DNA of 64,000 nt from Desulfobacula sp. (GTDB lineage Bacteria > Desulfobacterota > Desulfobacteria > Desulfobacterales > Desulfobacteraceae): the NCBI RefSeq assembly GCF_030145145.1, contig NZ_JAQYWD010000016.1, positions 1 through 64,000 of the forward strand, written 5' to 3'. The notes below the pieces were generated by a model. That model worked only from the letters and a program-made list of their open reading frames with translations, made no database searches and was not told where the DNA came from. Both the position numbers and the translations under genes were made by a program. Positions 48,030 to 64,000 of the stretch are shown here, piece after piece (position 1 is the stretch's first letter; every line of letters begins with the position of its first letter).

Positions 48030-48141
48030 GAGTATCTCTATATCATATGCCGGTAAAATATCAAATCTTCAATCTTTGAGGTTGCCAGGCGGTTTCAAGC
48101 CTGACATTTTTAGCATAGGCTAAGATAAAAAGGAACTTGGA

Positions 48142-49381
48142 TCATCCCACAGCCAAGCGCCGGGTAGTCCGGATCAATCGTGCCGACATGGGATATTTCA
48201 AACGCCACACAATGGACATGGGCCGATTCTCCGTGTGATGGACATAGGTTGCCGGCCCAAGGAAATAATAGGGGCAGGCAAGCGAGTTGAACCTTTTCTG
48301 TTCCCTCACAAACAGCAATATCTGATGACCCTGTTTCTCGTGGTGGATGTATCGCTGCCCCGTGGTGAAACTCATCCACCACAATATAGTCAAAAAAATC
48401 CGGTGGTACCTGGTCCCAAAGCGCTCTTGCGTTGAGGGTCTGCACCGAGACAAAGAGTTGCTCCAGATGGTCAGGCCTGTGGTTGCCCACCCACAACTCT
48501 CCAAAGTTGTTGTCCCGTAAAATATTTCGAAACACCCACCGGGATTGAACAAGTATCTCCTCCCGATGGGCCACAAAAAGTATTCGCGTTTGTTGGGGAC
48601 GGTCAAAGGAGTGTTTGAAATCAAAGGCCGCAATGATGGTCTTGCCCGTGCCTGTGGCTGCCACCACCAAATTTCTGCACCGATGGTGCAACGCTCTTTC
48701 CGCTTTCAGGGTGTCCAGAATTTCCTGTTGATAGGTATAGGGGACAATATTGAAAAAGGAGAGTTCTTGATCTGCTGTGAATGCCCCACCTCCCCGTTCC
48801 TGGTTCAGGGCTCGGTCCAGGCGCGGCAAAGATTCCAGGGAGACGGGTTCGAACTCCCGGGAGCGCAGATAGGTCTCAAAGGTGGCATTGATCTTTTCCC
48901 AGAGATGTCCTGATTCCTGCTGGCACAATTTTACATTCCACTCCAGACCATCGGCATGAAGCATTTCCTGCTTGAGCTGGGAGACCAGGGAGGGATCACC
49001 AGATGTGGCCGTGAGTAATGCCCCCACGGACAGCGGTGTTTCCGGCCTGGGGGAATTGGTAAGGGCTGGATCAAGGACTTGCAGCAGACGTCTGCCATCT
49101 ATATCAATGTGTCCATGGCCATCCTGATCTTTTTCAATGGATTTACAGGCCGAGGAGATGAGTTTATTGCACACGGTAATCTGTTTTGCAAGCTTGTCAC
49201 GGCCTTTGACCCGGGCCAGGATGCCGGCGAGGTAGTGTTCCATATAGCGGGCCAGGATGCCGTGGCTTTCTTCGGTGTCCACCCGGGTGGTGATGCTTTG
49301 GAGCCCATTATCCAGTTTGTCCAGTTCCTGCTTCAGCGCCTGGGTGATCAGTTGTTCGTATAATCCGGGTTGGATGGCCAT
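48142..49381 (-). pseudogene. DEAH helicase with DUF3427 tail, internally deleted
   Basis: The frame starting at ATG 49381 encodes the N-terminal domain of PLD-type DEAD/DEAH helicases. It jumps directly from LKQEMLHAD to GLEWNVKLCQQ, so the expected PLD domain is missing. Helicase motifs I (VVAATGTGKTIIAAF) and II (IVVDEFHHGAA) follow. At about 48345 the second helicase domain is lost and the frame changes. Another frame then continues to a stop at 48142 with the DUF3427 end (GHQILLFVREQKRF, YYFLGPATYVHH, RPMSIVWRLKYPM). Both gene ends are kept while the middle parts are deleted. It cannot make a working helicase. Confidence 0.75.
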
Positions 49382-50113: not shown

Positions 50114-50423
50114 TTGAATTGATTAGTAACAAATATCTATAATTCCTATAAAGCGATATTAAACTTAAATGATATGGAGTAATCGATACGCAAATAGTTA
50201 AAATTTTATACATCTGCCGTATTCATTTTAAAGGGTATCAGTTGTAGCAAATTCATGCAGGACAGAACCTGCTGACTGTTAATTTCTGAAATTTCCTTGA
50301 CCAATTACAATACGATGCTGTATGGATTTGTGTGATTAAAAATGACTATTTCATTTTTCAAGTTAACCGGTCGCAAATGAGGGCTTCTGTTCTTTAGCAT
50401 GATAAAGAACATTGATTATTCTT
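50114..50423. promoter_or_regulatory. Divergent spacer upstream of the DrmA operon
   Basis: This 310-base AT-rich spacer separates the broken nuclease gene from the drmA-like gene and must hold the promoter of the five-gene operon. No near-consensus sigma-70 pair or operator palindrome could be singled out. The drmA start lacks a good ribosome site. Confidence 0.4.
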
Positions 50424-53400
50424 ATGTTCGAAAACACATTCACTAAAGCAAGACAAGACATACACGACTGGATTAAGCGATGCCTTGTGGGCCCTTTTTA
50501 TGACGCTGACGAACAATTAAATGAAATACGACCCTCGCTCCTGTATTCCTGCGGCATATTGTACGGGCATATGGAAGACCCGGACAATGACGTATTCGCA
50601 ACCGATGATGAGGATGAAGATGAACTGCCCGTGTTTGGCGTGGAGGAGGGCCCTGCCCCAGCCAATAGTGCCAAAAAAGCATCTTCCATCTGTCGGTATC
50701 GACCGCCTTCAGCCGTGGGACTCAGCTTTTTTGTTGACAAAGAGATTACCCTGGACGTCATTCTCAAAGCGGCCAGATATACCAACAAGACCGGAAACAT
50801 CTGGAAACGCTACCCGTTGCCCGATGACACACCGGATCATCAGGACATCATCACCCTGAAACCGCCGGAGAATGACCAGCAGTTTGATGATACGGTTCCC
50901 ATACCGATTCTGCACCATACAGACCTTGAACAGGACCATAAGCCGTCTGCCAGACTCCATGTAAAATGGCGGCCCTATCCCACGGCAGCGCCTGACGGGT
51001 ATATTGTGACGATTTCTGTTGTCAACACGGCGGTTGCCCGAAGAATTGACCCGAGAGAATGGGAGAAAACCCATCTGTTCCAATTGTCTTTTGAGTGTCA
51101 TGTTCAGGCCGGACAGGTCCGTCCCTATCCGGGAAATGAAATTGATACCATGGCCCGGGAAGACAAAGAATTTGAATTGCTTTACGCTGACAAGACCGTT
51201 TATGCCATCGGACATGGGGTTTCCCCGGACTGGTCGGAAAAAAATGGCAGCGTCACCTCAATTACCGCATCTTTTATTCCCGCCTATGAAGTGCCGTTGA
51301 TGAAGACAGAGGTCCCTGAAATTGACAGCAAGGCCCTTCAATTGTCGCGCCTTGCGCAAATTCAGCAGCATCCGGACACCATCCAGAAAAGGTTGACTGG
51401 TTTTACAAAAACCTATGAGAACTGGGTAGACGACCTCTGGAAGGCATCCATATGCCTGTCCCCGGAGCAGCGGACGGTTGCCGGCACCATGCTAAAACGG
51501 CTTGAAAAAACAGCGGACAGAATGAACCAGGGAATCATTTGCCTGAAAGACCCCATGGTGGCCCGGGCCTTTGCCTTTGCCCATGACGCCATGCTGGCCT
51601 ATATGAAAACGCGCAAGGTAGAAAACCCCCTGTGGCGCCCGTTTCAGCTGGGGTTTCTCCTGCAGACCCTGCCCTCGTTAATCGATGAAAACAATCCGGA
51701 CCGGGACCTGGTGGATCTGCTGTGGTTCCAGACCGGCGGCGGAAAAACAGAAGCCTATCTGGCCATCATCGCCTTTCTGGTGACCCACCGACGCATGCGG
51801 TTTCCCGGGACCGGAGCCGGAACCACCGTGATCATGCGATATACCTTAAGGCTTTTGACCATACAGCAATTTCAGCGGGCATCCATTGTCATGTGCGCCC
51901 TTGAGCTCCTGCGCCGGAAAAACCCCCAGGTGCTGGGGTCAGAACCCATAACCGCCGGGTTGTGGGTGGGGGGCGCCAGTTCCCCCAACCGGTTTAAAGA
52001 TGCCCGGAACATACTGGATGATGCCTTACAAAGCCATGGCGCAGGCCTTGAGAAACTGGTTGTCACAGACTGTCCCTGGTGCGGGGAACGACTCGCCTTA
52101 GACCAAAATCCGGCGAAATCGGGATTTGTCTCAAATCAAGGACAGTTTCATTTTTGCTGTACCAATCGCCGCTGTGATTTTGGGGGCAGCGACAACCCGG
52201 TGCTGCCGGTGAATGTGGTGGATGAACACCTGTATACCCATCCGCCCACCCTGCTGCTGGCCACCATTGACAAATTTGCCATGTTTGCCTGGAATACGGA
52301 TACCACGATTTTTCTGGGCAACGCCTCCCGGGGAAAAGGCCCGTTTCGGCCGCCGGATTTGATCATCCAGGATGAACTGCACCTCATCGCAGGAGAGCTT
52401 GGCACCATTGCCGGGGTATATGAAGCCGGGTTTGATACGGTCTTGAAACTCAAAGACCACTCCCCCAAATATATTGCCTCCACGGCCACCATCCGCAATG
52501 CCAGGGAACAGGTAAAAAAACTCTATGCCCGGGAGGTGAGCATTTTCCCGTCACCGGGACTCAACTGGAGCGATTCTTTTTTTGCCCGGGTGGACAGGGA
52601 AAAACCGGGCCGCTTATACCTGGGCTATTATTCTCCGGGATTTAAACGGACGGAATCCTTTGCCCCTTTGGGTGCGGCCCTCTTGTTATCGCCGTCCCTG
52701 TGGAATGATGCCGATGAAAGCATCCAGGATGCCTGGTGGACCCTGGTGGCCTATCATGGCAGTTTGAGAGGACTTGGCATCACCCATAATTTAATTGGGG
52801 ATGATGTCAGAAAATACCTGGAATTGTTTGTCCGCCGATTGCTGGATGGCGAACAGGGTCGAACCGATGCCCTGGCCCGGGGATTTAATGCGTTCTGTAA
52901 AAAGTTTAAGGTCTCCAGGAATGAGGACGACTGGGAAAGAAAGATAATTGACGGGTTTTTAACCCACAGGCGGCTCTACACGGAAAGCGGTATTGCGGAA
53001 TTGACCAGCAATCGAAACGCCAATGAAATCAGGCGATACCTGGGGGATCTGGAGATCCCGTATTCCGGGGAAAACAATCAGGCCATTTCCGTTCTTTTGT
53101 GCACCAATATGGTGTCGGTGGGGTTGGATATCTCCCGGCTGGGATTAATGGTCATCAATGGCCAGCCCTTTACAACCGGCGAATATATCCAGGCCGGCAG
53201 CCGGGTGGGACGAAACAATGTTCCCGGCATTGTGGTGGCCCATTATTTCCGCAATCATGCCCGGGATATGTCCCATTTTGAAAATTTTAAAGCCTATCAT
53301 CAATCTTTTTACCGGTTTGTTGAACCCACCAGTTTAACCCCGTTTTCATCCCCGGCCCGGAAAAGGGCCCTGCATGCAGCCCTGGTCATTGTCATGCGCC

Positions 53401-53756
53401 ATGGGGCCGGTCTCCTGGGGAACCATATGGCGGACCGCATCAATCTTAAAGATGACAAGATCCAGCATGCGGCTGCCTGCTTTGCCCAGCGCTGCAGGCT
53501 GGCATCACCGGATAAGGGGGATAAAACCCAGGCCCACATTGACAATTTATTGTATGAGTGGCAGGACATGAGCGGCGGCGATGGACTGTTCAAGGAAAAA
53601 CTCCAGTATCAAAGCCATTCAAAGGACAGCAAACCCTTGTTAAAACGGCACAATGAGAAAAAAATGGACCGCCCGGATGATGACAGCTGGGTGACCCTGC
53701 AATCCATGCGGCAGGTGGATGATGAATGCGGGATTCGGTTTATGGGGCCCCGGTAA
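50424..53756 (+). CDS. drmA: DrmA-like SF2 helicase (DISARM core)
   Basis: This 1110-residue protein has a ~400-residue N-terminal region with no motif, then Walker A WFQTGGGKTEAY (~residue 433). A zinc-finger pair follows: CPWCGERL (~551) and CCTNRRC (~578). Then come DEAD-like motif II IIQDELHLIAGELG (~649), motif III ASTATIRNA (~686), and motifs V/VI MVSVGLDISRLG and QAGSRVGR (~922). Order, size and the zinc insertion match DrmA, the helicase of the DISARM anti-phage system. It should form a DNA-binding pair with the DrmB-like protein encoded 24 bases downstream. ATG 50424 is used; a TTG four codons earlier is possible. Confidence 0.8.
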   Translation: MFENTFTKARQDIHDWIKRCLVGPFYDADEQLNEIRPSLLYSCGILYGHMEDPDNDVFATDDEDEDELPVFGVEEGPAPANSAKKASSICRYRPPSAVGLSFFVDKEITLDVILKAARYTNKTGNIWKRYPLPDDTPDHQDIITLKPPENDQQFDDTVPIPILHHTDLEQDHKPSARLHVKWRPYPTAAPDGYIVTISVVNTAVARRIDPREWEKTHLFQLSFECHVQAGQVRPYPGNEIDTMAREDKEFELLYADKTVYAIGHGVSPDWSEKNGSVTSITASFIPAYEVPLMKTEVPEIDSKALQLSRLAQIQQHPDTIQKRLTGFTKTYENWVDDLWKASICLSPEQRTVAGTMLKRLEKTADRMNQGIICLKDPMVARAFAFAHDAMLAYMKTRKVENPLWRPFQLGFLLQTLPSLIDENNPDRDLVDLLWFQTGGGKTEAYLAIIAFLVTHRRMRFPGTGAGTTVIMRYTLRLLTIQQFQRASIVMCALELLRRKNPQVLGSEPITAGLWVGGASSPNRFKDARNILDDALQSHGAGLEKLVVTDCPWCGERLALDQNPAKSGFVSNQGQFHFCCTNRRCDFGGSDNPVLPVNVVDEHLYTHPPTLLLATIDKFAMFAWNTDTTIFLGNASRGKGPFRPPDLIIQDELHLIAGELGTIAGVYEAGFDTVLKLKDHSPKYIASTATIRNAREQVKKLYAREVSIFPSPGLNWSDSFFARVDREKPGRLYLGYYSPGFKRTESFAPLGAALLLSPSLWNDADESIQDAWWTLVAYHGSLRGLGITHNLIGDDVRKYLELFVRRLLDGEQGRTDALARGFNAFCKKFKVSRNEDDWERKIIDGFLTHRRLYTESGIAELTSNRNANEIRRYLGDLEIPYSGENNQAISVLLCTNMVSVGLDISRLGLMVINGQPFTTGEYIQAGSRVGRNNVPGIVVAHYFRNHARDMSHFENFKAYHQSFYRFVEPTSLTPFSSPARKRALHAALVIVMRHGAGLLGNHMADRINLKDDKIQHAAACFAQRCRLASPDKGDKTQAHIDNLLYEWQDMSGGDGLFKEKLQYQSHSKDSKPLLKRHNEKKMDRPDDDSWVTLQSMRQVDDECGIRFMGPR

Positions 53757-53780
53757 TGGTTATTTCAGGCAGGCAATGGA

Positions 53781-55640
53781 ATGGATAAGACCACCATCAC
53801 AGTAGGGCAGACCAAAACCATTGGCATGTGCTCGGTGGGGGCAATCTGCCGGGCCGGCAGCGAATGCTTTGTGCCCTGCGACATCCGTTTCTGGACCGAC
53901 AGACAGGGAAATCCTCTGGGACAGCCCATCTCCATCGTGCGGGAACATTTAAAGATCTGGCTCAAACACAAAGGGTTTCAAGATGTTGAGCTGTTAAAAC
54001 CCCCGACCCTGACCCAGGTGAACAACAAACGCCTGGGCAATCGCATCCCGGCCGTGCGGTTTCCGTCCTGGATGGTGTGCCAGCGCTGTGGCCGGCTCCA
54101 TTACCTGCCCTGGCTGGGAAAAAAAATCGACTCCGTGGAAGCGTTGACGTGTGATGCAACATCTTCAGGGAAAAGCTGTAATGGTAAACTTGAATTTGTC
54201 ACCTGGGTCCTGGTATCGGGTGAAGGCTATCTGGATGATCTGCCCTGGGCAGACATGGCCCATTATGACGAAAAAGCGAATAGACATTGCAGTGCCAAAG
54301 ATCACCTGATCTTGTCCAGAGATCCCCAGGGCCGGTTGACCCTTAGATGTAAGGCCTGTGGGTCTCCCCCCTACAATTTAAGCGGCCTGAGAAATAAAGA
54401 CTTTTTCGTCAACCGGATCCAGACCATGCGCAGCCAGCCATGGCTGCTGGAAAGAAAACCCATAGAGTCTGACCCGCCCGTGGCCATGCCCTTAACCGAT
54501 GCCCGTATCCATTTTTCAGACATTGCTTCAGCATTGGATATTCCGCCGGAATCCCGGATCAATGAACGCGATATCCGGGCAAAAATCAGACAGCATGATG
54601 ATTATCCCGTGGTCAAAGACCTGGGAGCCCGTGACACAAGACAGATAAAACGCCTGCTCAAGAAAATGGCCCGACAGTTTCACCTCACCGGGGATGAGGT
54701 GAAAAAAGCCCTAACGGATCTCAAGGCGGGATGGCCCCACTATGGAACCCCAACCGGTGCGGTCACCAGTGAAAATGAGATGCTGGCAGCAGAGTATAAG
54801 GCCATCTGCACTGAGTACAAAGACATCCAGGAACATGAACGCTTTATCACCGATCATCAGACCGCTCAATGGAAGGATTACCTTGAATCCACGGACATGA
54901 CCGAAAAAAACGCGACCATTGGCAGTGCCATTGAACGATTAATTATCATCAACCGATTAAGGGAAATCCAGGTGTTCTGCGGATTTACCCGGCAGGTGGG
55001 CACACAGGGGGCGTTGATCGGCCCTGCCCTGGGCGAAGAAACCACCTGGCTTCCCGCGTGTGAACTCTATGGGGAAGGCATCTTCTTCTCCCTGGATGAA
55101 AAAAAGCTGAAGGCATGGGAAGCAGATCCCTTGTGTATTGAACGCTCAACGATATTGGAAAAAAGGCTTAAAACCTCGGGGTTTGTTAAACGACAGGTGA
55201 CCGTCTCTGCCCGGTTCATTCTTTTACATACCCTGGCCCACCAGATCATAAGGGAACTGGAATTTACCTCCGGTTATCCCATATCGTCCATAAAAGAAAA
55301 AATCTTTTGCAGTGACGCTATGAATGGTATTCTCATCTATGTGGCCGTTCCCAATAAAATGGGCTCGCTGGGGGGATTGAGTGAACATGGACAGCCCGAC
55401 AGTTTTTTTAAACTGTGGATTAAGGCCATGGCAAAAGCCGAACACTGCACCTATGATCCCATCTGTGCCGAGCATGAGGGACAGGGCCCTGACCAGTTAA
55501 ACCGGGCCGCCTGCCATGGCTGTTCCCTGTTACCGGAGGTCAGCTGCATCTATAACAACTGCCTCCTGGACCGGCAGTTTATCATGGGCGCCGGCGGCCA
55601 CCACATGACAGGATTTATTCCTTTTATACAGAACATTTAG
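53781..55640 (+). CDS. drmB: DrmB-like DUF1998 protein (DISARM core)
   Basis: This 619-residue protein has the DUF1998 domain at its C-terminus: FILLHTLAHQIIRELEF (~482), SIKEKIFCSD, GILIYVAVPNKMGSLGGLSE, and a final Cys set (C..DPIC, AACHGCSLLPEVSC, NNCLLDR, ~553-597). N-terminal zinc ribbons are CQRCGRLHYLPW and RCKACGSPPYNL. DUF1998 next to a DrmA-type helicase defines DISARM cores. In the known system DrmAB loads on free 5' DNA ends. Here a long helical region (~270-440) separates the two parts. AGG lies nine bases before ATG. Confidence 0.8.
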   Translation: MDKTTITVGQTKTIGMCSVGAICRAGSECFVPCDIRFWTDRQGNPLGQPISIVREHLKIWLKHKGFQDVELLKPPTLTQVNNKRLGNRIPAVRFPSWMVCQRCGRLHYLPWLGKKIDSVEALTCDATSSGKSCNGKLEFVTWVLVSGEGYLDDLPWADMAHYDEKANRHCSAKDHLILSRDPQGRLTLRCKACGSPPYNLSGLRNKDFFVNRIQTMRSQPWLLERKPIESDPPVAMPLTDARIHFSDIASALDIPPESRINERDIRAKIRQHDDYPVVKDLGARDTRQIKRLLKKMARQFHLTGDEVKKALTDLKAGWPHYGTPTGAVTSENEMLAAEYKAICTEYKDIQEHERFITDHQTAQWKDYLESTDMTEKNATIGSAIERLIIINRLREIQVFCGFTRQVGTQGALIGPALGEETTWLPACELYGEGIFFSLDEKKLKAWEADPLCIERSTILEKRLKTSGFVKRQVTVSARFILLHTLAHQIIRELEFTSGYPISSIKEKIFCSDAMNGILIYVAVPNKMGSLGGLSEHGQPDSFFKLWIKAMAKAEHCTYDPICAEHEGQGPDQLNRAACHGCSLLPEVSCIYNNCLLDRQFIMGAGGHHMTGFIPFIQNI

Positions 55641-55655
55641 GCTGAAAGTGATGCC

Positions 55656-56798
55656 ATGAAAAAGGATTTCCGGCTTCCCACATACGAAGAATTGAGTAAA
55701 GAACAGGACAGGGTTCTGCGGCGAACGCAATTAAAAAACCGGTCCATTGTTTATGGGGCCCCCGGCACAGGCAAAACCGTCATCTTTCTTATTCTGGCCG
55801 ACCGGTTAAACCGGAACAAACAAGCGTGTCTGTGTCTTTTGTACAATCGAATTCTGGAAAAAATGTCCCACAGCCTGGCCGATGATATTAACATCAAAAC
55901 CTGGCACTCCTGGTTCTGGCATTTTTTCCTTCGTCAGTTCAACCATACCCCGCCGGAGATTAAAAAATTTGAATATGACTGGGACGGGGTCATGGATCGG
56001 GTGGACCAAGCCGATCCGGACGTTGATACCCATACGTTTTTGTTAATTGATGAGGGACAGGATATGCCCCCCGGGTTCTATGAATTCATGGATGAAACCT
56101 TTCAACATATCATTGTCTCGGCTGATGAAAACCAGCAGCTGGCTGACATGAATTCATCCATCAAGCAGATCAGAGAACGGTTGGATATTCAACCGGACCA
56201 CTGCTTTTTACTGACTAAAAATTATCGAAATACCCGGCAAATCGCTCTTTTAGCCGAACACTTTTATTGCGCCACCACTGCTGATCCCCCAAAGCTGCCG
56301 GAAAAAAACGGTGAAATCCCCTTGCTGGTCGAATATACGGATTTAGCAATCATGATCCAGCGTATCGCCCTTCGGCACAAAACCCATCCGGATCATTTGA
56401 TCGGGATTCTGGCACCCAACAACACGGTCAGGGCAAATTACTTCGATCAACTGGCGCAACTGGGGATTTTTTCCCTGTACACCTATGCAAACCAGTTGGG
56501 CAACAAAAACAAACCCATTGCCTTTGACCGGGGCGGTATTGTTGTGATCAATTCAAAAAGTGCAAAGGGCCTGGAATTTGACGATGTTTTCATTGTTGAA
56601 CTAGACAAATTTCTCCTGGCGGGTCCCCGGGATGAACGATTCAGAAAAGAGATGTATGTGTTGATTTCCAGGGCCAGGGAACGCCTTTTTTTCCTGATGG
56701 ATGCCACCCTCCCCGGCACCATCACTAAAAAAATCCTGGATGAATTCCCGGACGATACGCGGGTATTAAAAACATGGCAGCAACACCAAGAGGAGTAA
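55656..56798 (+). CDS. Compact UvrD-like SF1 helicase/ATPase
   Basis: This 380-residue protein has SF1 motifs in order: Q-like EELSKEQDRVL, Walker A YGAPGTGKTVIF (~36), Walker B LLIDEGQDMPPGF (~131), motif III-like VSADENQQL, motif IV LTKNYRNTRQIA (~189), motif V SKSAKGLEFDDVFIVE (~300) and motif VI VLISRARERLFFL (~335). It is half the size of UvrD and lacks the usual 2B insertion, resembling the NERD-associated helicases. It follows drmB by 15 bases. It could unwind ends or act as a sensor ATPase with DrmAB; that role is inferred. Confidence 0.8.
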   Translation: MKKDFRLPTYEELSKEQDRVLRRTQLKNRSIVYGAPGTGKTVIFLILADRLNRNKQACLCLLYNRILEKMSHSLADDINIKTWHSWFWHFFLRQFNHTPPEIKKFEYDWDGVMDRVDQADPDVDTHTFLLIDEGQDMPPGFYEFMDETFQHIIVSADENQQLADMNSSIKQIRERLDIQPDHCFLLTKNYRNTRQIALLAEHFYCATTADPPKLPEKNGEIPLLVEYTDLAIMIQRIALRHKTHPDHLIGILAPNNTVRANYFDQLAQLGIFSLYTYANQLGNKNKPIAFDRGGIVVINSKSAKGLEFDDVFIVELDKFLLAGPRDERFRKEMYVLISRARERLFFLMDATLPGTITKKILDEFPDDTRVLKTWQQHQEE

Positions 56799-56802
56799 AT
56801 GG

Positions 56803-58407
56803 ATGGCAAAACCTGATTCAAAACCGTTTTTAATGGCCACGAACACGGAAAATTTAAAAAGTATCCTCACCACCAGCCTCATTCGTCCCATGGAAGGATA
56901 TCGAAAATATTACAAGGATTTTTGTTCGTTTTCTCCGGGCTTTATCCCGCTGTTTATCGGTTCCATACCGGCCAAACACCTTTCGGTGTGTCAGGAAGAA
57001 ACAGATATGGATGTTGTCATCCTTTCCCTTGACTTGTCCCGGGAAAAATTAAGCGCCCTGGTGAAAGACCCCGTGGAGGGTAAAGACCCGCTGGAGGAAA
57101 AAAACCCGGCAGGCATCTTTTTTTTCCAAGGGGTGATACCGGTTACCGCCATTCAACACATTTATTTTAAATCAAAAAAAGAAAAAGACCGGTTTCTGGA
57201 TTTCCGGTATGCCCATTTTCATCCCACGGATTTCAGCCTGAAAGTAAACGCAAAGGCATTTCGTCAAACCACCATTGACGGAGACATCTTTCATGAAAAC
57301 CCGGGGCTTGATGCCTTTACATCCCCACCGCCCTTTGCAGAAAAAACCGTCCCATGTACCGCAGACTTTCTGGAGGCTGATGCCCGGGGCGGGGTTCTTT
57401 CCCTGCTGTCAGCCTCCCTGCCGCCCTTGCCCGAGGCCGGAAAGCTCATCACTGCAGCGGTTCATGAATTGCCATCCGCATCGGTTGATCTGGCGGTATT
57501 ACCCGAACAGATCAAGACCCTTCATCACTGGATCTGGAAACAGCCGGCAGCCACCGACGATGTTGACGGGATATTGTTGTGGCACCTGCTGAACCTCTTG
57601 TCTGCCTGTGATCCCCACCAGGGCATGACAGCGTCTGTTTTTTTACATGGATTACACGAAGAATTTAAACGAAGCCCGGATTTCCGGCAGGCCCCTAAAA
57701 GCCCTTATGCAGACCTGATCCAGAAGCTGGAAAAAAGATTTCAGGAAATTTCAACCAGTGTTGAAGGCATCACTGACCCGGTCATTTTTTTCCAGGACAA
57801 CGGCATTGCATCCAATGTAATGAAAGGCCTGTTGCTTTTTTTATTGTATCCCAAAGATATCTATGACTTTCCGGATAATAAGGAGATGATGAAAGAATGG
57901 GGCATAACCCCCCCCATTCACTTGTTTGCCACCATTTTATACGCGGCCTGGCAGGGATGGACGCGGTTGGATGAAGGCATCTGCTGCCGGGACAAGCCCC
58001 ATGTTTCTGCTGTGTGTAATTTCATGGCAGACTGGCACAATCAATTTTATGCCGGGCATTCCTATGGCTTTTCTCCTGGAGGCACTTTCAAGGTGACGGG
58101 ACAATGCAGCCCCTGGGAAAAAACAATGCTGCTGACCCTGCCCTGGAAGGCCCATCACAAACTGGGAAAATGTGCCCTTCAATTGGCAAAAACAAGGGAC
58201 TGGCCTTGTCTTCACTGGGATATCACCGCCCCCAAAGAAAAACTGTCAGATCTGCACTATACAAGAGAGGGCGGATTAAAATTGAAGCTCATTGGAAACG
58301 TCGTGTTCAAGGAATCCATTGATATCCCTCTCTTCAAGACCCTATTGGAAGCCACAGAATTGACGGATGATGAAAAAAAGCACTTTGACATGCTCTATAC
58401 GGCCTGA
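56803..58407 (+). CDS. Unknown protein of the DrmAB-associated operon, 534 aa
   Basis: This large soluble protein belongs to no family I recognise. Its N-terminal ~130 residues are alpha/beta with SPGFIPLFIGSIPAKHLS and MDVVILSLDLSREKL. There follow FFQGVIPVTAIQHIYFKSKKEKDRFLDF, a Pro/Ala-rich middle (PPLPEAGKL) and a mixed C-terminal half with WHNQFYAGHSYGFSPGG and LGKCALQLAKTRDWPCLHWD. No Walker, nuclease, PLD or transmembrane motif is visible. It begins four bases after the helicase stop (GAGGAG site) and ends 16 bases before the next gene's preferred start, so it is co-translated with the two helicases. A structural or sensor role is possible. Confidence 0.75.
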   Translation: MAKPDSKPFLMATNTENLKSILTTSLIRPMEGYRKYYKDFCSFSPGFIPLFIGSIPAKHLSVCQEETDMDVVILSLDLSREKLSALVKDPVEGKDPLEEKNPAGIFFFQGVIPVTAIQHIYFKSKKEKDRFLDFRYAHFHPTDFSLKVNAKAFRQTTIDGDIFHENPGLDAFTSPPPFAEKTVPCTADFLEADARGGVLSLLSASLPPLPEAGKLITAAVHELPSASVDLAVLPEQIKTLHHWIWKQPAATDDVDGILLWHLLNLLSACDPHQGMTASVFLHGLHEEFKRSPDFRQAPKSPYADLIQKLEKRFQEISTSVEGITDPVIFFQDNGIASNVMKGLLLFLLYPKDIYDFPDNKEMMKEWGITPPIHLFATILYAAWQGWTRLDEGICCRDKPHVSAVCNFMADWHNQFYAGHSYGFSPGGTFKVTGQCSPWEKTMLLTLPWKAHHKLGKCALQLAKTRDWPCLHWDITAPKEKLSDLHYTREGGLKLKLIGNVVFKESIDIPLFKTLLEATELTDDEKKHFDMLYTA

Positions 58408-58423
58408 AGGATATGTCAACCCC

Positions 58424-60001
58424 ATGAGAATGTTACCCTGCCAACCCTATGACAATAACAGCACAGCCGAACTTCAGGTCTTTGAAAAATTTTCACAGTT
58501 CCCCTCCCTGGACAAGACATCCGTGTGTTTCCATTCCTTAAATGTGCCCCGCCATATCAAACAACGGTTTGGCGAAGCTGATTTTGTGCTGTTAAGCAGG
58601 TATGGCCTTTTTGTTTTTGAGGTCAAAGGCGGGTCCGTCTCCCGGGACAAGGAGGGACTCTGGCATTTCAGGGATAAAAAAGGGATTGACCATACCAGCA
58701 GAAGAAGTCCTTTTGTCCAGGCAAACGATGCCCTGCACTCCATTAAAAATGATTTGGGAAACCAGTTGGGTCACCCGTTGATCACCCGTATGTGCATCGG
58801 ATATGGGGTTATTTTCCCGGATTGCGCCCTGGATCTGGAAACCCTTGAATGGGACCCAAAAACCCTGTTGGATGCCGCTGCGTTTGATTGCTTTGATGCC
58901 TGGCTGAAGGCCCTTATCCGCTACTGGATATCCCTTGACCGGCGGAAAACCGCAACCCGTCTTAGTGATGAGGAGATACAGCAGATTGAAGCCTATCTTC
59001 GCCCGGAATTTGAAACCCTTGCTTGCCTGTCTGCTCAATTAGACACGATCCATGACCGGATGTGCAGATTAACCCACGACCAGTTCCGTTTACTGGATGT
59101 GGCCCAGGCCAATGACAGGGTCATGTGCAGCGGGGGAGCAGGTACCGGGAAAACCTTGATGGCGGCAGAACTGTGTCGAAGGGCTGCGCAATCTCATAAC
59201 ACGGTTCTGTTTGTATGCAAATCCGTGTGGCTTGAACGATATCTGCATGCCCGGCTTAGAAAACCCAACCTATTGGTTTCAACCATTGATCAACTGGAAC
59301 TGAAGGCCCAACAAAACCGGATTAAATCCTTTGATCGGCTCATCGTGGATGAGGGCCAGGACCTCTTTAATTTTGACGATCTGGCAACACTGGCATCCTT
59401 TTTAAACGGGTCTTTTTCCACCGGTTGCTGGACAATTTTTCATGACATCAACCATCAATCCGGCATTTGGGGGTGTTATCAAAAACAAGCCCTGGACTCC
59501 CTGTTAAAGATGAATCCTGTGTGCATTCCACTGCGAAAAAACTGCCGGAATACCACACCGATTTTAAAAAAAATCCAGGCCCTCACGCAATATGATATCG
59601 GCGATACCGGCACAGGACATGGACCTGAGGTAGTCATCCATCCGAGCCATGGCCATCCTGAGCGTGAACTTGCCCGGGAGTTGAACCGCCTGGTGACCCG
59701 GGAAGGGGTTGCCCTGGGCGATATTACTATTTTATCCCCTGTCCCGTTTAAGGTGTCCTGTGCCGCCCTTCTGAATAAAGCATCCCGCAGCAACATCCAG
59801 GTGCTGGATGAAAATTCAATTCAAGATATTTTTTTGATCCCTAAAATTTCCTATGCCCGGATACACGAATTCAAGGGTCTTGAAAACAAGTGTATCCTCC
59901 TTGTGGATCTTGATCATCATTACCAGGATGAAAAATATCTGCCCCTGTTATATGTGGGGATGAGCCGTGCCATGGCAAGTCTTTCCCTGATTTTATCATA
60001 A
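58424..60001 (+). CDS. NERD nuclease-UvrD-like helicase fusion
   Basis: This ~525-residue protein has an N-terminal NERD domain: TAELQVFEKFSQ, then FGEADFVLLSRYGLFVFEVKGG with the D...E-x-K nuclease-like triad near residue 66, and PFVQANDALHSIKN. From residue ~220 it is an SF1 helicase: CSGGAGTGKTLMA (~237), LIVDEGQDLFNF (~308), PLRKNCRNTTPIL (~371), ARIHEFKGLENKCILLVDLDH (~481 on) and LLYVGMSRAM (~510). It thus carries a candidate DNA-cutting module, absent from the other operon members. ATG 58424 follows AAGGA. An earlier in-frame ATG (58367) lies inside the previous gene. Confidence 0.8.
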   Translation: MRMLPCQPYDNNSTAELQVFEKFSQFPSLDKTSVCFHSLNVPRHIKQRFGEADFVLLSRYGLFVFEVKGGSVSRDKEGLWHFRDKKGIDHTSRRSPFVQANDALHSIKNDLGNQLGHPLITRMCIGYGVIFPDCALDLETLEWDPKTLLDAAAFDCFDAWLKALIRYWISLDRRKTATRLSDEEIQQIEAYLRPEFETLACLSAQLDTIHDRMCRLTHDQFRLLDVAQANDRVMCSGGAGTGKTLMAAELCRRAAQSHNTVLFVCKSVWLERYLHARLRKPNLLVSTIDQLELKAQQNRIKSFDRLIVDEGQDLFNFDDLATLASFLNGSFSTGCWTIFHDINHQSGIWGCYQKQALDSLLKMNPVCIPLRKNCRNTTPILKKIQALTQYDIGDTGTGHGPEVVIHPSHGHPERELARELNRLVTREGVALGDITILSPVPFKVSCAALLNKASRSNIQVLDENSIQDIFLIPKISYARIHEFKGLENKCILLVDLDHHYQDEKYLPLLYVGMSRAMASLSLILS

Positions 60002-60592: not shown

Positions 60593-61177
60593 TTAATTTC
60601 CCCTTGACCGAAACGTGACCAGATAGTTGTATTGACCCATATCGGCCGTTTTTTCTCGTTCAAACCCATGCCCGGTAACCATTTTTTCAACCTCCCCTTC
60701 AGACAGCCGAATCTTCATGGGCGGACCAGGAGGTCCTTCAATTTTCTTGAACTCAACAACAGCAAGACATCCACCGGGTTTTAATATGCGATGGATTTGT
60801 TTTAAAACTGCATCGGCCTTGTTAATTTCTTCAAAATCGTGGAGGACTGTGGCCATCAGACAGACATCAACGCTGTCATCATCAATATCCATTTCCTGTG
60901 TCCCATCCAGCAAAAGGGTTTTGATATTGGTGATGTCCCTGGCTTCAATCTCCTGGTCTAAAAGGCCAATTCCCTCCTGCCAGAAGTCCACAGCATAAAC
61001 CAGTCCCTGATCACCAATAATCCCGGACAGGAACATGGAATAAAGCCCCCTGCCACAGGCCAGATCAAGGACAACGAATCCAGGTTTCACCGGCAGAATG
61101 TCTGCCAGGGTCTTTGTGTTTATTAATTCAAAACTACTCTTACCCGCGCCCTTGGGATGCTTATGTGTATCATTCAT
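60593..61177 (-). CDS. Class I SAM-dependent methyltransferase
   Basis: This ~194-residue methyltransferase has motif I FVVLDLACGRGLYSMFLSG, the acidic end of strand 2 in VYAVDFWQEGI, SVDVCLMATVLHDFEE as motif II/III and ILKPGGCLAVVEFKK. It belongs to the Methyltransf_11/UbiE-like group, which acts on small molecules. Nothing marks it as a DNA methylase (no DPPY or NPPY). ATG 61177 follows GGGAG and gives a normal start; a much longer in-frame start is unlikely. It sits outside the DrmAB operon on the other strand. Confidence 0.82.
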   Translation of the reverse strand: MNDTHKHPKGAGKSSFELINTKTLADILPVKPGFVVLDLACGRGLYSMFLSGIIGDQGLVYAVDFWQEGIGLLDQEIEARDITNIKTLLLDGTQEMDIDDDSVDVCLMATVLHDFEEINKADAVLKQIHRILKPGGCLAVVEFKKIEGPPGPPMKIRLSEGEVEKMVTGHGFEREKTADMGQYNYLVTFRSRGN

Positions 61178-61448
61178 GGTGCTGCTCCCATCATGGTCGG
61201 TCAGGACCGTTTCTTGTTTTGATTGACGTCTGCGTTCTTTACAGGCACAATCCCTGTGATTTTTTATATAGCGGATCCAGGATGGATTGTACATTGCCAT
61301 GGCAATTAAATGTGGCAGGCACAAATAAAGTTTACAAATTTCACACCTTTTTCACATTCTTTTCACGACCATTCACACCCGCAACGCTATGGTCCCCCCG
61401 TGATTGACAAACAAAGCGACTCCGTGTCTGCTAACAGAGGAAATGCAA

Positions 61449-63474: not shown

Positions 63475-64000
63475 TTAGCCCAATCCAAGCAGGCGCTTGA
63501 TCATTTCCTCGTTGCCGTCCCATGTAGCCTCTTCAGCTTCCGGACTAACTGAGCCGGTCACAGCCGATGCTCTATCAATGGCTTTGCGCTTCATCTCGTT
63601 GTCTGCACGGGCATAGATCAATGTGGTCATCGGATTGTTATGACCCAGAAACTGAGCGAGTAATTCTAGAGGCATTCCTGCCTGATACAGAAGCATGGCA
63701 CGCGTTTTTCTGATCAAGTGCGGGTGAACACAATCAGGGACTTCTGAGCACTCAGCTTTTGCAGAATTGCCGTATTTTCTGACAAACCTGGCCACATTGT
63801 CGTCAGACATCTGCCCCTTGTTACCATGCCTAATCGTATAGAACATGGGAACAAATCCGTCTTTTTGGGAATGGAAAGTTTTCGTATATCTGTGAAAATG
63901 CTGAATGGTATCATCGCTAATCGGGACACTTCTCGGTTTGTTCCCTTTCCCTAACAAATAGACAACTTTTCCTACCGGATCAAAATCACAAAACCGCATG
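63475..64000 (-). CDS. Tyrosine recombinase/phage-type integrase, C-terminal part (partial)
   Basis: The frame runs off the right edge of the window, so the N-terminus is missing. Visible are the core-binding/catalytic segments LLGKGNKPRSVPISDD, HPHLIRKTRAMLLYQAGMPLELLAQFLGHNNPMTTLIYARAD, which contain the R-x-x-R/K, H-x-x-H/GH and catalytic Tyr of XerC/D-like recombinases. It may mobilise the adjoining island of decayed and defence genes. Confidence 0.85.
   Translation of the reverse strand, partial: MRFCDFDPVGKVVYLLGKGNKPRSVPISDDTIQHFHRYTKTFHSQKDGFVPMFYTIRHGNKGQMSDDNVARFVRKYGNSAKAECSEVPDCVHPHLIRKTRAMLLYQAGMPLELLAQFLGHNNPMTTLIYARADNEMKRKAIDRASAVTGSVSPEAEEATWDGNEEMIKRLLGLG

Follow-up and report, generated by a model that had tools for sequence, protein, structure and literature searches.

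DISARM systems fall into class 1, with DrmD, and class 2, with DrmE, and carry a methylase, DrmMI or DrmMII. The 64,000-nt stretch of the Desulfobacula sp. contig NZ_JAQYWD010000016.1 analysed here (the window, whose positions are used throughout) contains, at 50424-60001, a five-gene operon that starts as in DISARM, with a drmA followed by a drmB (genes A and B), and continues with a compact helicase (gene C, hel3), a protein of 534 amino acids (aa; gene D) and a fusion of a NERD nuclease with a helicase (gene E). The motor residues, base-contact valine and cysteines of DrmA and DrmB are kept in this five-gene type but DrmC, a methylase, DrmD and DrmE are absent, and there are instead three other fixed partners. 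The gene set looks like an undescribed variant of DrmAB (YprA-family) immunity, with defence suggested by gene content, linkage, motifs and predicted folds.

As described in excerpts of PMC9142583, the Serratia DrmAB complex is kept off by a trigger loop and loads on 5′ overhangs, its ATPase is lowered, not raised, by 5-methylcytosine (5mC), and DrmA touches a base through V1296, which is proposed to be a methylation sensor. The same excerpts report that DISARM restricts phages that lack methylation target sites, and that DrmC is dispensable and often missing, with recruitment of other PLD nucleases proposed, so that the absence of DrmC alone does not exclude DISARM.

The nearest published work is a survey of the YprA family (PMC12458937). 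In the portions consulted, TALON similarly combines a YprA-family helicase and a NERD nuclease, but its TPR-CSD and TBP genes, and its fusion of YprA to an inactive RNase H fold, are unmatched among the five genes, and the NERD domain in the window, although present, is part of a helicase fusion. ARMADA also has a YprA-family helicase together with, in type II, a GajB-like helicase, but its BrxHII helicase, PglX-like methylase and RelE fusion are not recognised in the window operon. Gene C is itself weakly GajB-like but no GajA match, as would be expected for Gabija, was found among the five genes. The reverse-transcriptase-associated NERD-helicase model of PADLOC (RTasNERD-Hel; all PADLOC models are from the 2023 release) resembles gene E over nearly its full length, with NERD and superfamily 1 (SF1) helicase parts, but no reverse transcriptase is recognised among the five genes. 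The N-terminal fold of gene D resembles DarT of DarTG, but none of 62 gene D members has a Pfam DarT match, there is no macrodomain gene among the five, and gene D is fused to a helical part and sits inside a DrmAB operon. PbeABCD, whose paper cites DrmC, was considered and set aside for its gene content, in which two small proteins accompany a PLD-helicase and an SMC-like ATPase. NERD is mentioned in surveys of BREX and of Dnd, neither of which has DISARM or DUF1998 in its main text. The gene set was not found described in the open-licence full-text papers searched, and could stand unnamed in the supplementary tables of PMC12458937, a source seen in part.

Five genes and their predicted products

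The five open reading frames (ORFs) and the evidence for each are as follows.

50424-53756, + strand: gene A, DrmA-like YprA-family superfamily 2 (SF2) helicase (ATG at 50424; with an upstream TTG at 50412 the ORF is 50412-53756)
53781-55640, + strand: gene B, DrmB-family protein with invariant cysteines (NCBIfam, PADLOC and PDB matches)
55656-56798, + strand: gene C (hel3), compact SF1 UvrD/HelD-like helicase of 380 aa (profile comparison with the PDB; motif residues)
56803-58407, + strand: gene D, 534 aa, with an apparent N-terminal ADP-ribosyltransferase (ART; DarT-like) fold at residues ~1-150 (AlphaFold2 models, Foldseek, Pfam 2CompART)
58424-60001, + strand: gene E, NERD (PD-(D/E)xK) nuclease fused to an SF1 helicase (Pfam NERD, PADLOC RTasNERD-Hel)

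The ORF of gene E opens at 58367, but homologues start at the equivalent of the internal ATG at 58424 (alignment A2) and, with this start, the spacings between the five genes are 24, 15, 4 and 16 bases. The first-pass annotation, made from the sequence, had placed five ORFs at spacings of 4 to 24 bases and assigned four of them to a DrmA-like and DrmB-like pair, a compact UvrD-like helicase and a NERD-helicase fusion, and the profile searches agree. Gene A matches PADLOC DrmA (4e-197) and the solved DrmA structure 7s9v_A (5.6e-133 in PDB profile comparison), and gene B matches PADLOC DrmB (1.7e-55), the solved DrmB 7s9v_B (1.3e-40) and NCBIfam DrmB_fam (291.4 bits, above the cut-off of 240). 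Gene A scores 813 bits with NCBIfam DISARM_DrmAS, below the cut-off of 950, and is therefore not a DISARM DrmA by that curated standard. Gene C matches SF1/UvrD-like PADLOC models, GajB best (1.8e-11), and its profile is nearest, in the PDB, to HelD, PcrA and UvrD (HelD-type helicase 2.5e-17, PcrA 1.7e-14). Gene E matches Pfam NERD (1.2e-10) and PADLOC RTasNERD-Hel (1.7e-48).

The residues that these families depend on are close to invariant. In the DrmA family alignment, the Walker A lysine is kept in 68 of 69 members, and the D, E and H of motif II and the arginine pair of motif VI in 69 of 69, as is the valine aligned to Serratia V1296. Eleven cysteines of DrmB are likewise present in 69/69, and C193 in 67/69. 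All 67 aligned hel3 proteins have K40, D132, E133, K304 and R339, and all 80 gene E relatives have both the nuclease-domain residues (E35, E70, D72, E85, K87 and Q118) and the helicase residues (K262, D328, E329 and R534). As far as residue conservation can predict, the operon thus appears to encode a competent PD-(D/E)xK nuclease and three competent motors, two of SF1 and one of SF2.

Linkage, phylogeny and surroundings of the operon

Relatives were retrieved from GTDB genomes with the gene E profile alone, and the best 80 of 163 relatives were analysed by scoring the loci in six frames with the five family profiles and then checking gene order. Sufficient DNA on the relevant side is present at 64 of these 80 loci, the other 16 being cut by contig ends; the 64 include two pairs from the same record or genome (L115/L116 and L102/L124). 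All five families occur on one strand at 62 of the 64 loci, in the order A-B-C-D-E at 57 and E-A-B-C-D at 5 (Hymenobacter, Mycolicibacter, two Actinoplanes and Nocardioides), and the largest gap between neighbouring matches in these complete loci is 647 bases. The two exceptions are L130, which has a DrmA-DrmB fusion, a natural single protein of 1717 aa (L130:2097-7250, Psychrobacter sp. I-STPA10), and L128, which has a 394-aa protein in the D position. With all five families kept in order at 62 of 64 loci, the association is not due to chance, and the last three genes are as a rule conserved with drmAB, a point on which the first-pass annotation had staked its proposal.

By record title, the carriers, mostly metagenome-assembled, are from nine phyla, Desulfobacterota, Pseudomonadota, Lentisphaerota, Verrucomicrobiota, Planctomycetota, Acidobacteriota, Bacteroidota, Campylobacterota and Actinomycetota. 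A Deinococcus gobiensis plasmid also carries E-A-B-C-D, with gene D at 78 bits and with genes named by NCBI, for example, 'helicase-related protein' and 'AAA family ATPase'. A DrmA search in 389 genomes of the class identified 23 genomes, three of them marginal (G068, G157 and G160; E 5e-4 to 6e-4). Nine of the remaining 20, including the window, have complete five-gene sets, nine have other layouts, one locus is cut by a contig end (L046) and one is without an intact gene E (L050). Gene D is present in nine of the 389 genomes, and in all nine shares its locus with DrmA. Phylum-wide (395 genomes), the gene D profile matched only the window and one other sequence (8.4e-4), and when genome contigs were scanned with the single gene D protein 39 stretches fitted the pattern and none was confirmed. 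Some relatives (L165, L166) keep A-B-C with no recognisable D or E alongside.

A tree of 49 DrmA proteins was built by a quick method and rooted on three plasmid DISARM references (L167, drmA-DUF1998-drmC; L168, drmD-methylase-drmA; L170, methylase and drmA). Thirty A-B-C-D-E rows, drawn at random from those at hand with the window kept and including loci whose gene calls are incomplete or broken (L050, L083, L092 and L102), form one clade (SH-aLRT 100), with the E-A-B-C-D and A-B-C rows adjoining it. The three references, and a further type represented by L051 to L056, fall outside this clade. With long branches and only three references, the tree gives separateness, not exact placement. The L051-L056 type resembles the window operon in having a NERD-helicase directly before drmA-drmB but differs in its further genes, with cytosine-methylase models in L052 and L054 and hel3 and gene D not recognised. 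In L052, L053 and L056, a gene of 567 to 615 aa and one of 517 to 519 aa precede the NERD-helicase, drmA, drmB and further genes, which in L052 (1159-15198) match MzaE and DrmMII; variants have a methyl-directed restriction enzyme (L051), a cytosine methylase (L054) or a type IV restriction enzyme (L055, with a partial gene E and with gene A running up to the contig end). The 517-aa gene was tried as a relative of gene D and is unrelated to it (0.3% probability). As nine DrmA genomes have other layouts, DrmA per se does not imply genes C and D, but membership of the five-gene DrmA clade does.

The operon is a discrete cassette. Nucleotide similarity to a congener (G050; 77-79%) spans window positions 50276 to 59998 and then ends, with ~3.4 kb of flank compared per side, and so includes a conserved leader.

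50276-50395, + strand: leader of 120 bp with a promoter-like block, conserved with congener G050; a putative promoter

In the congener (locus L041), ~1.36 kb with a 284-aa ORF on the opposite strand is inserted between drmA and drmB, and the leader is present twice, before drmA and again before drmB, which suggests that a promoter is kept before each part. A simple consensus promoter scan did not flag the leader; it gave 3 sites in each region, where shuffled sequence averaged 2.8 and 1.6, and the region scans yielded no terminator.

The first-pass annotation had seen no drmC, drmD, drmE or DNA methylase, and none is recognised among or beside the five genes of the window by PADLOC, Pfam and neighbour scans.

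60593-61324, - strand: nearest methyltransferase-like gene (UbiE and general methyltransferase models)

Around the related loci, 122 of 124 nearest neighbours, each of at least 120 aa (set A5), were compared with the PADLOC models at E 1e-5, and every model for DrmC, DrmM, DrmD, DrmE or a methylase matches at most one of the 122, an outcome that leaves the first-pass proposal standing. A further 133 families match at most one neighbour each, and lone methylases can hide among these. Among 439 ORFs lying up to 5 kb from the loci, motif searches flagged one as methylase-like (L093) and none as a 5mC methylase; nine have an HKD-type motif, not at a fixed place. Neighbours that match defence models include MzaA (4 of 122), pAgo (2), type IV enzymes (mREase_IV, 2), PglZ (1) and AbiEii (1), and the PDC candidate, DEDDh and PbeA models each match at least two.

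Several further features were observed. Two copies of the operon occur per chromosome or assembly at L102/L124 (OY282353.1) and L115/L116 (JAJDYI01). In IMG/VR contigs, NERD-helicase relatives lie directly 3′ of genes of 1907 aa (L140), 1593 aa (L141) and 544 aa (L142), and one contig (L143) has a distant set in the order hel3-like gene (865 aa), DrmA, DrmB, NERD-helicase and a 915-aa gene. In the window itself, a 423-aa ORF at 48110-49381 (- strand), adjoining the operon, matches a type IV methyl-directed restriction enzyme model (8e-46, model positions 146-349 of 945) and is perhaps a fragment, and a phage-integrase domain is encoded near the cassette, at the right edge of the window (63475-63999, - strand).

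The 534-residue protein

Gene D had been annotated as an unknown protein, a description that overlooked an ART-like fold; taken as a single sequence, the window protein is matched by no Pfam, PADLOC or NCBIfam model. The AlphaFold2 model of the window protein (62 rows; local-confidence score, pLDDT, 79; predicted template-modelling score, pTM, 0.78) has as its top six PDB matches in Foldseek six DarT structures, at E 3.6e-3 to 4.9e-2 and probability 1.00, with template-modelling (TM) scores on the target of 0.40-0.52; tRNA 2′-phosphotransferase ranks next. A model of the L106 homologue (58 rows, pLDDT 92.8, pTM 0.92) also has DarT as its best match (E 1.5e-3, probability 1.00) and matches the same phosphotransferase, with nothing else above a probability of 0.23 among the 50 matches listed. 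After residue ~150, helices dominate in the models, with a small beta-sheet towards the end of this second part. The Pfam ADP-ribosyltransferase domain 2CompART matches 12 of 62 gene D members at E up to 1, the best being L106 at 1.8e-5, over residues 8-145 and nearly the whole domain (25.4 bits versus a cut-off of 27); most of the others inspected have weaker E values, of 7.5e-4 to 0.08, and the window protein itself is not matched. A separate 2CompART search matched nowhere, its controls included, and so carries no weight on absence. In a viral-library search, proteins of Bacillus phage G make up three of the four best matches to gene D (E 7.5e-3 to 0.2); according to excerpts of PMC9503650, this phage has genes for at least ten ARTs.

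Gene D was aligned from 61 of 66 listed relatives plus the window (A4) and from 57 relatives plus the window (A8). Conservation peaks at residues 26-50, followed by 1-25 and 376-400; N14, N17 and D39 are present in 76 of 76 sequences and residue 13 is T or S in all 76. The spacing of T13 and N17 is that of T15 and N19 in DarT, which according to excerpts of PMC9967889 bind the adenosine ribose of nicotinamide adenine dinucleotide (NAD), and hhalign aligns the two pairs, at a probability no better than that of the controls; its placement (the T..N..L motif) is all in the hhalign comparison that agrees with the fold match. The N-terminal part of gene D looks to have an ART fold, nearest to DarT, as indicated by the two models and by Pfam 2CompART, with a putative activity. 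More weakly still, the helical half hints at a resemblance to ADP-ribosylglycohydrolases (ARHs). Four ARHs (2yzw, 3g9d_B, 7l9h_B and 5zqy) are among the 50 Foldseek matches listed for the L106 model, at probability 0.09-0.23 and E 1.2-3.6, where cytochrome P450s rank alike, and hhalign aligns the helical half, with a probability of 0.43%, to a stretch conserved in ARHs; no ARH is among the 50 matches listed for the window model.

Competing explanations and a possible mechanism

We consider it probable, at about 0.68, that the five genes constitute one candidate system of the DrmAB/YprA branch directed against phages or mobile DNA, defence being the function that their content and setting suggest. 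A single immune system is favoured by the linkage at 62 of 64 loci, the spread over nine phyla, the single DrmA clade, the discrete cassette and the patchy distribution, and also by the plasmid copy, the near-invariant motor and nuclease residues, the DrmA-DrmB fusion, the fold of gene D, the defence-gene neighbours, the valine in 69 of 69 DrmA proteins and the lack of a C5-methylase match in five of ten carrier genomes. Several observations weigh against this interpretation. The DrmA locus L050 is without an intact gene E. The 394-aa protein in the D position of Pseudidiomarina halophila (L128:8820-10004) has no ART part by profile, and its match to the gene D profile is confined to a portion of the C-terminal half. 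No Foldseek match of either gene D model beats E 0.001, with TM scores on the target of ~0.4-0.5; hhalign gives gene D and a DarT set a probability of 0.4-0.6% versus 0.1-0.6% for control families; and no equivalents of DarT R51 and E160 can be placed in gene D. In one carrier, Desulfobacter latus (L048/L093), an N6_N4 methylase gene (also G021:C17:2917-3615) precedes drmA by ~100 bp. The defence-gene neighbour figures are raw counts. Eco57I and N6_N4 methylase families are present, anywhere in the genome, in all ten carrier genomes (a set that includes G110, which lacks gene E) and, with a valine proposed to sense methylation, a methylase acting in trans is conceivable.

This last point leads to an explanation that we regard as unlikely, namely a reduced DISARM in which methylases and a PLD nuclease are supplied from elsewhere in the genome and genes C to E are accessories. 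The DrmAB core and its proposed methylation-sensing valine are kept, the adenine-type methylases are there to be used, PLDc_2 is present in nine of the ten carrier genomes and, as cited above from PMC9142583, other PLD nucleases have been proposed as recruits where DrmC is missing. However, genes C to E are kept as strictly as drmAB, the C5-methylase match is absent from half of the ten genomes, that of the window included, PLDc_2 is absent from the one-contig genome G050, and the DrmA clade is separate from the three references. The lack of an operon methylase would also fit a type IV-like attack on methylated or hypermodified phage DNA, in which case a methylase that marks self DNA would do damage and is therefore missing. 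The conserved base-contacting valine, the type IV-like gene that adjoins the window operon and the mREase_IV matches among the neighbours are in line with such an attack, but all ten carrier genomes have adenine-type methylase families and 5mC lowers the Serratia ATPase (excerpts of PMC9142583), and we judge this also to be improbable.

That two systems, DrmAB-hel3 and a pair formed by the ART and the NERD-helicase, travel together has a smaller probability still. The A-B-C relatives L165 and L166 are what such a partnership could leave, but in the permuted loci E is before A and D is after C with all five still together, and the L051-L056 type keeps E-A-B with no recognised D, which ties gene E to A-B rather than to D. 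Least probable, and only marginally credible, is a DNA-repair operon of the MrfAB/YprA kind; the YprA family does have repair members (PMC12458937, in part), but the patchy, cassette-like spread across phyla, the occasional defence-gene neighbours and the fact that the nearest relatives are DISARM-type DrmA proteins all argue for immunity.

If the five genes do form one immune system, DrmAB would, by analogy with the Serratia complex, whose DrmA is longer than the one here, be its sensor and motor and would load where DNA exposes a single-stranded 5′ end. Invader might then be told from host by DNA structure, as the analogy would allow, and the operon would need no methylase. The NERD-helicase of gene E would probably take the place of DrmC as the DNA-cutting step, with DrmAB either recruiting it or handing DNA to it, and hel3, with its intact motifs, may be an accessory translocase. 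Gene D could modify DNA or a partner protein, or could act as a NAD-binding switch. A more specific and rather doubtful version is that, where DrmAB has opened ends, gene D uses NAD to ADP-ribosylate the DNA or a partner, after which the NERD-helicase destroys that DNA, with no methylase involved. If true, DISARM-type sensing would be joined to DarT-type chemistry, and an ARH-like helical half would make gene D a writer-eraser fusion.

For the DrmAB family, such a system would tie immunity to an ADP-ribosyltransferase fold, a link not found in the open-licence literature searched. In DISARM, both the effector and the rule that separates self from non-self are unsettled, and DrmC is dispensable (excerpts of PMC9142583). 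With a DrmAB operon that is widespread, encodes a nuclease-helicase of its own and contains no methylase, it can be tested directly whether DrmAB distinguishes self from non-self by DNA structure only.

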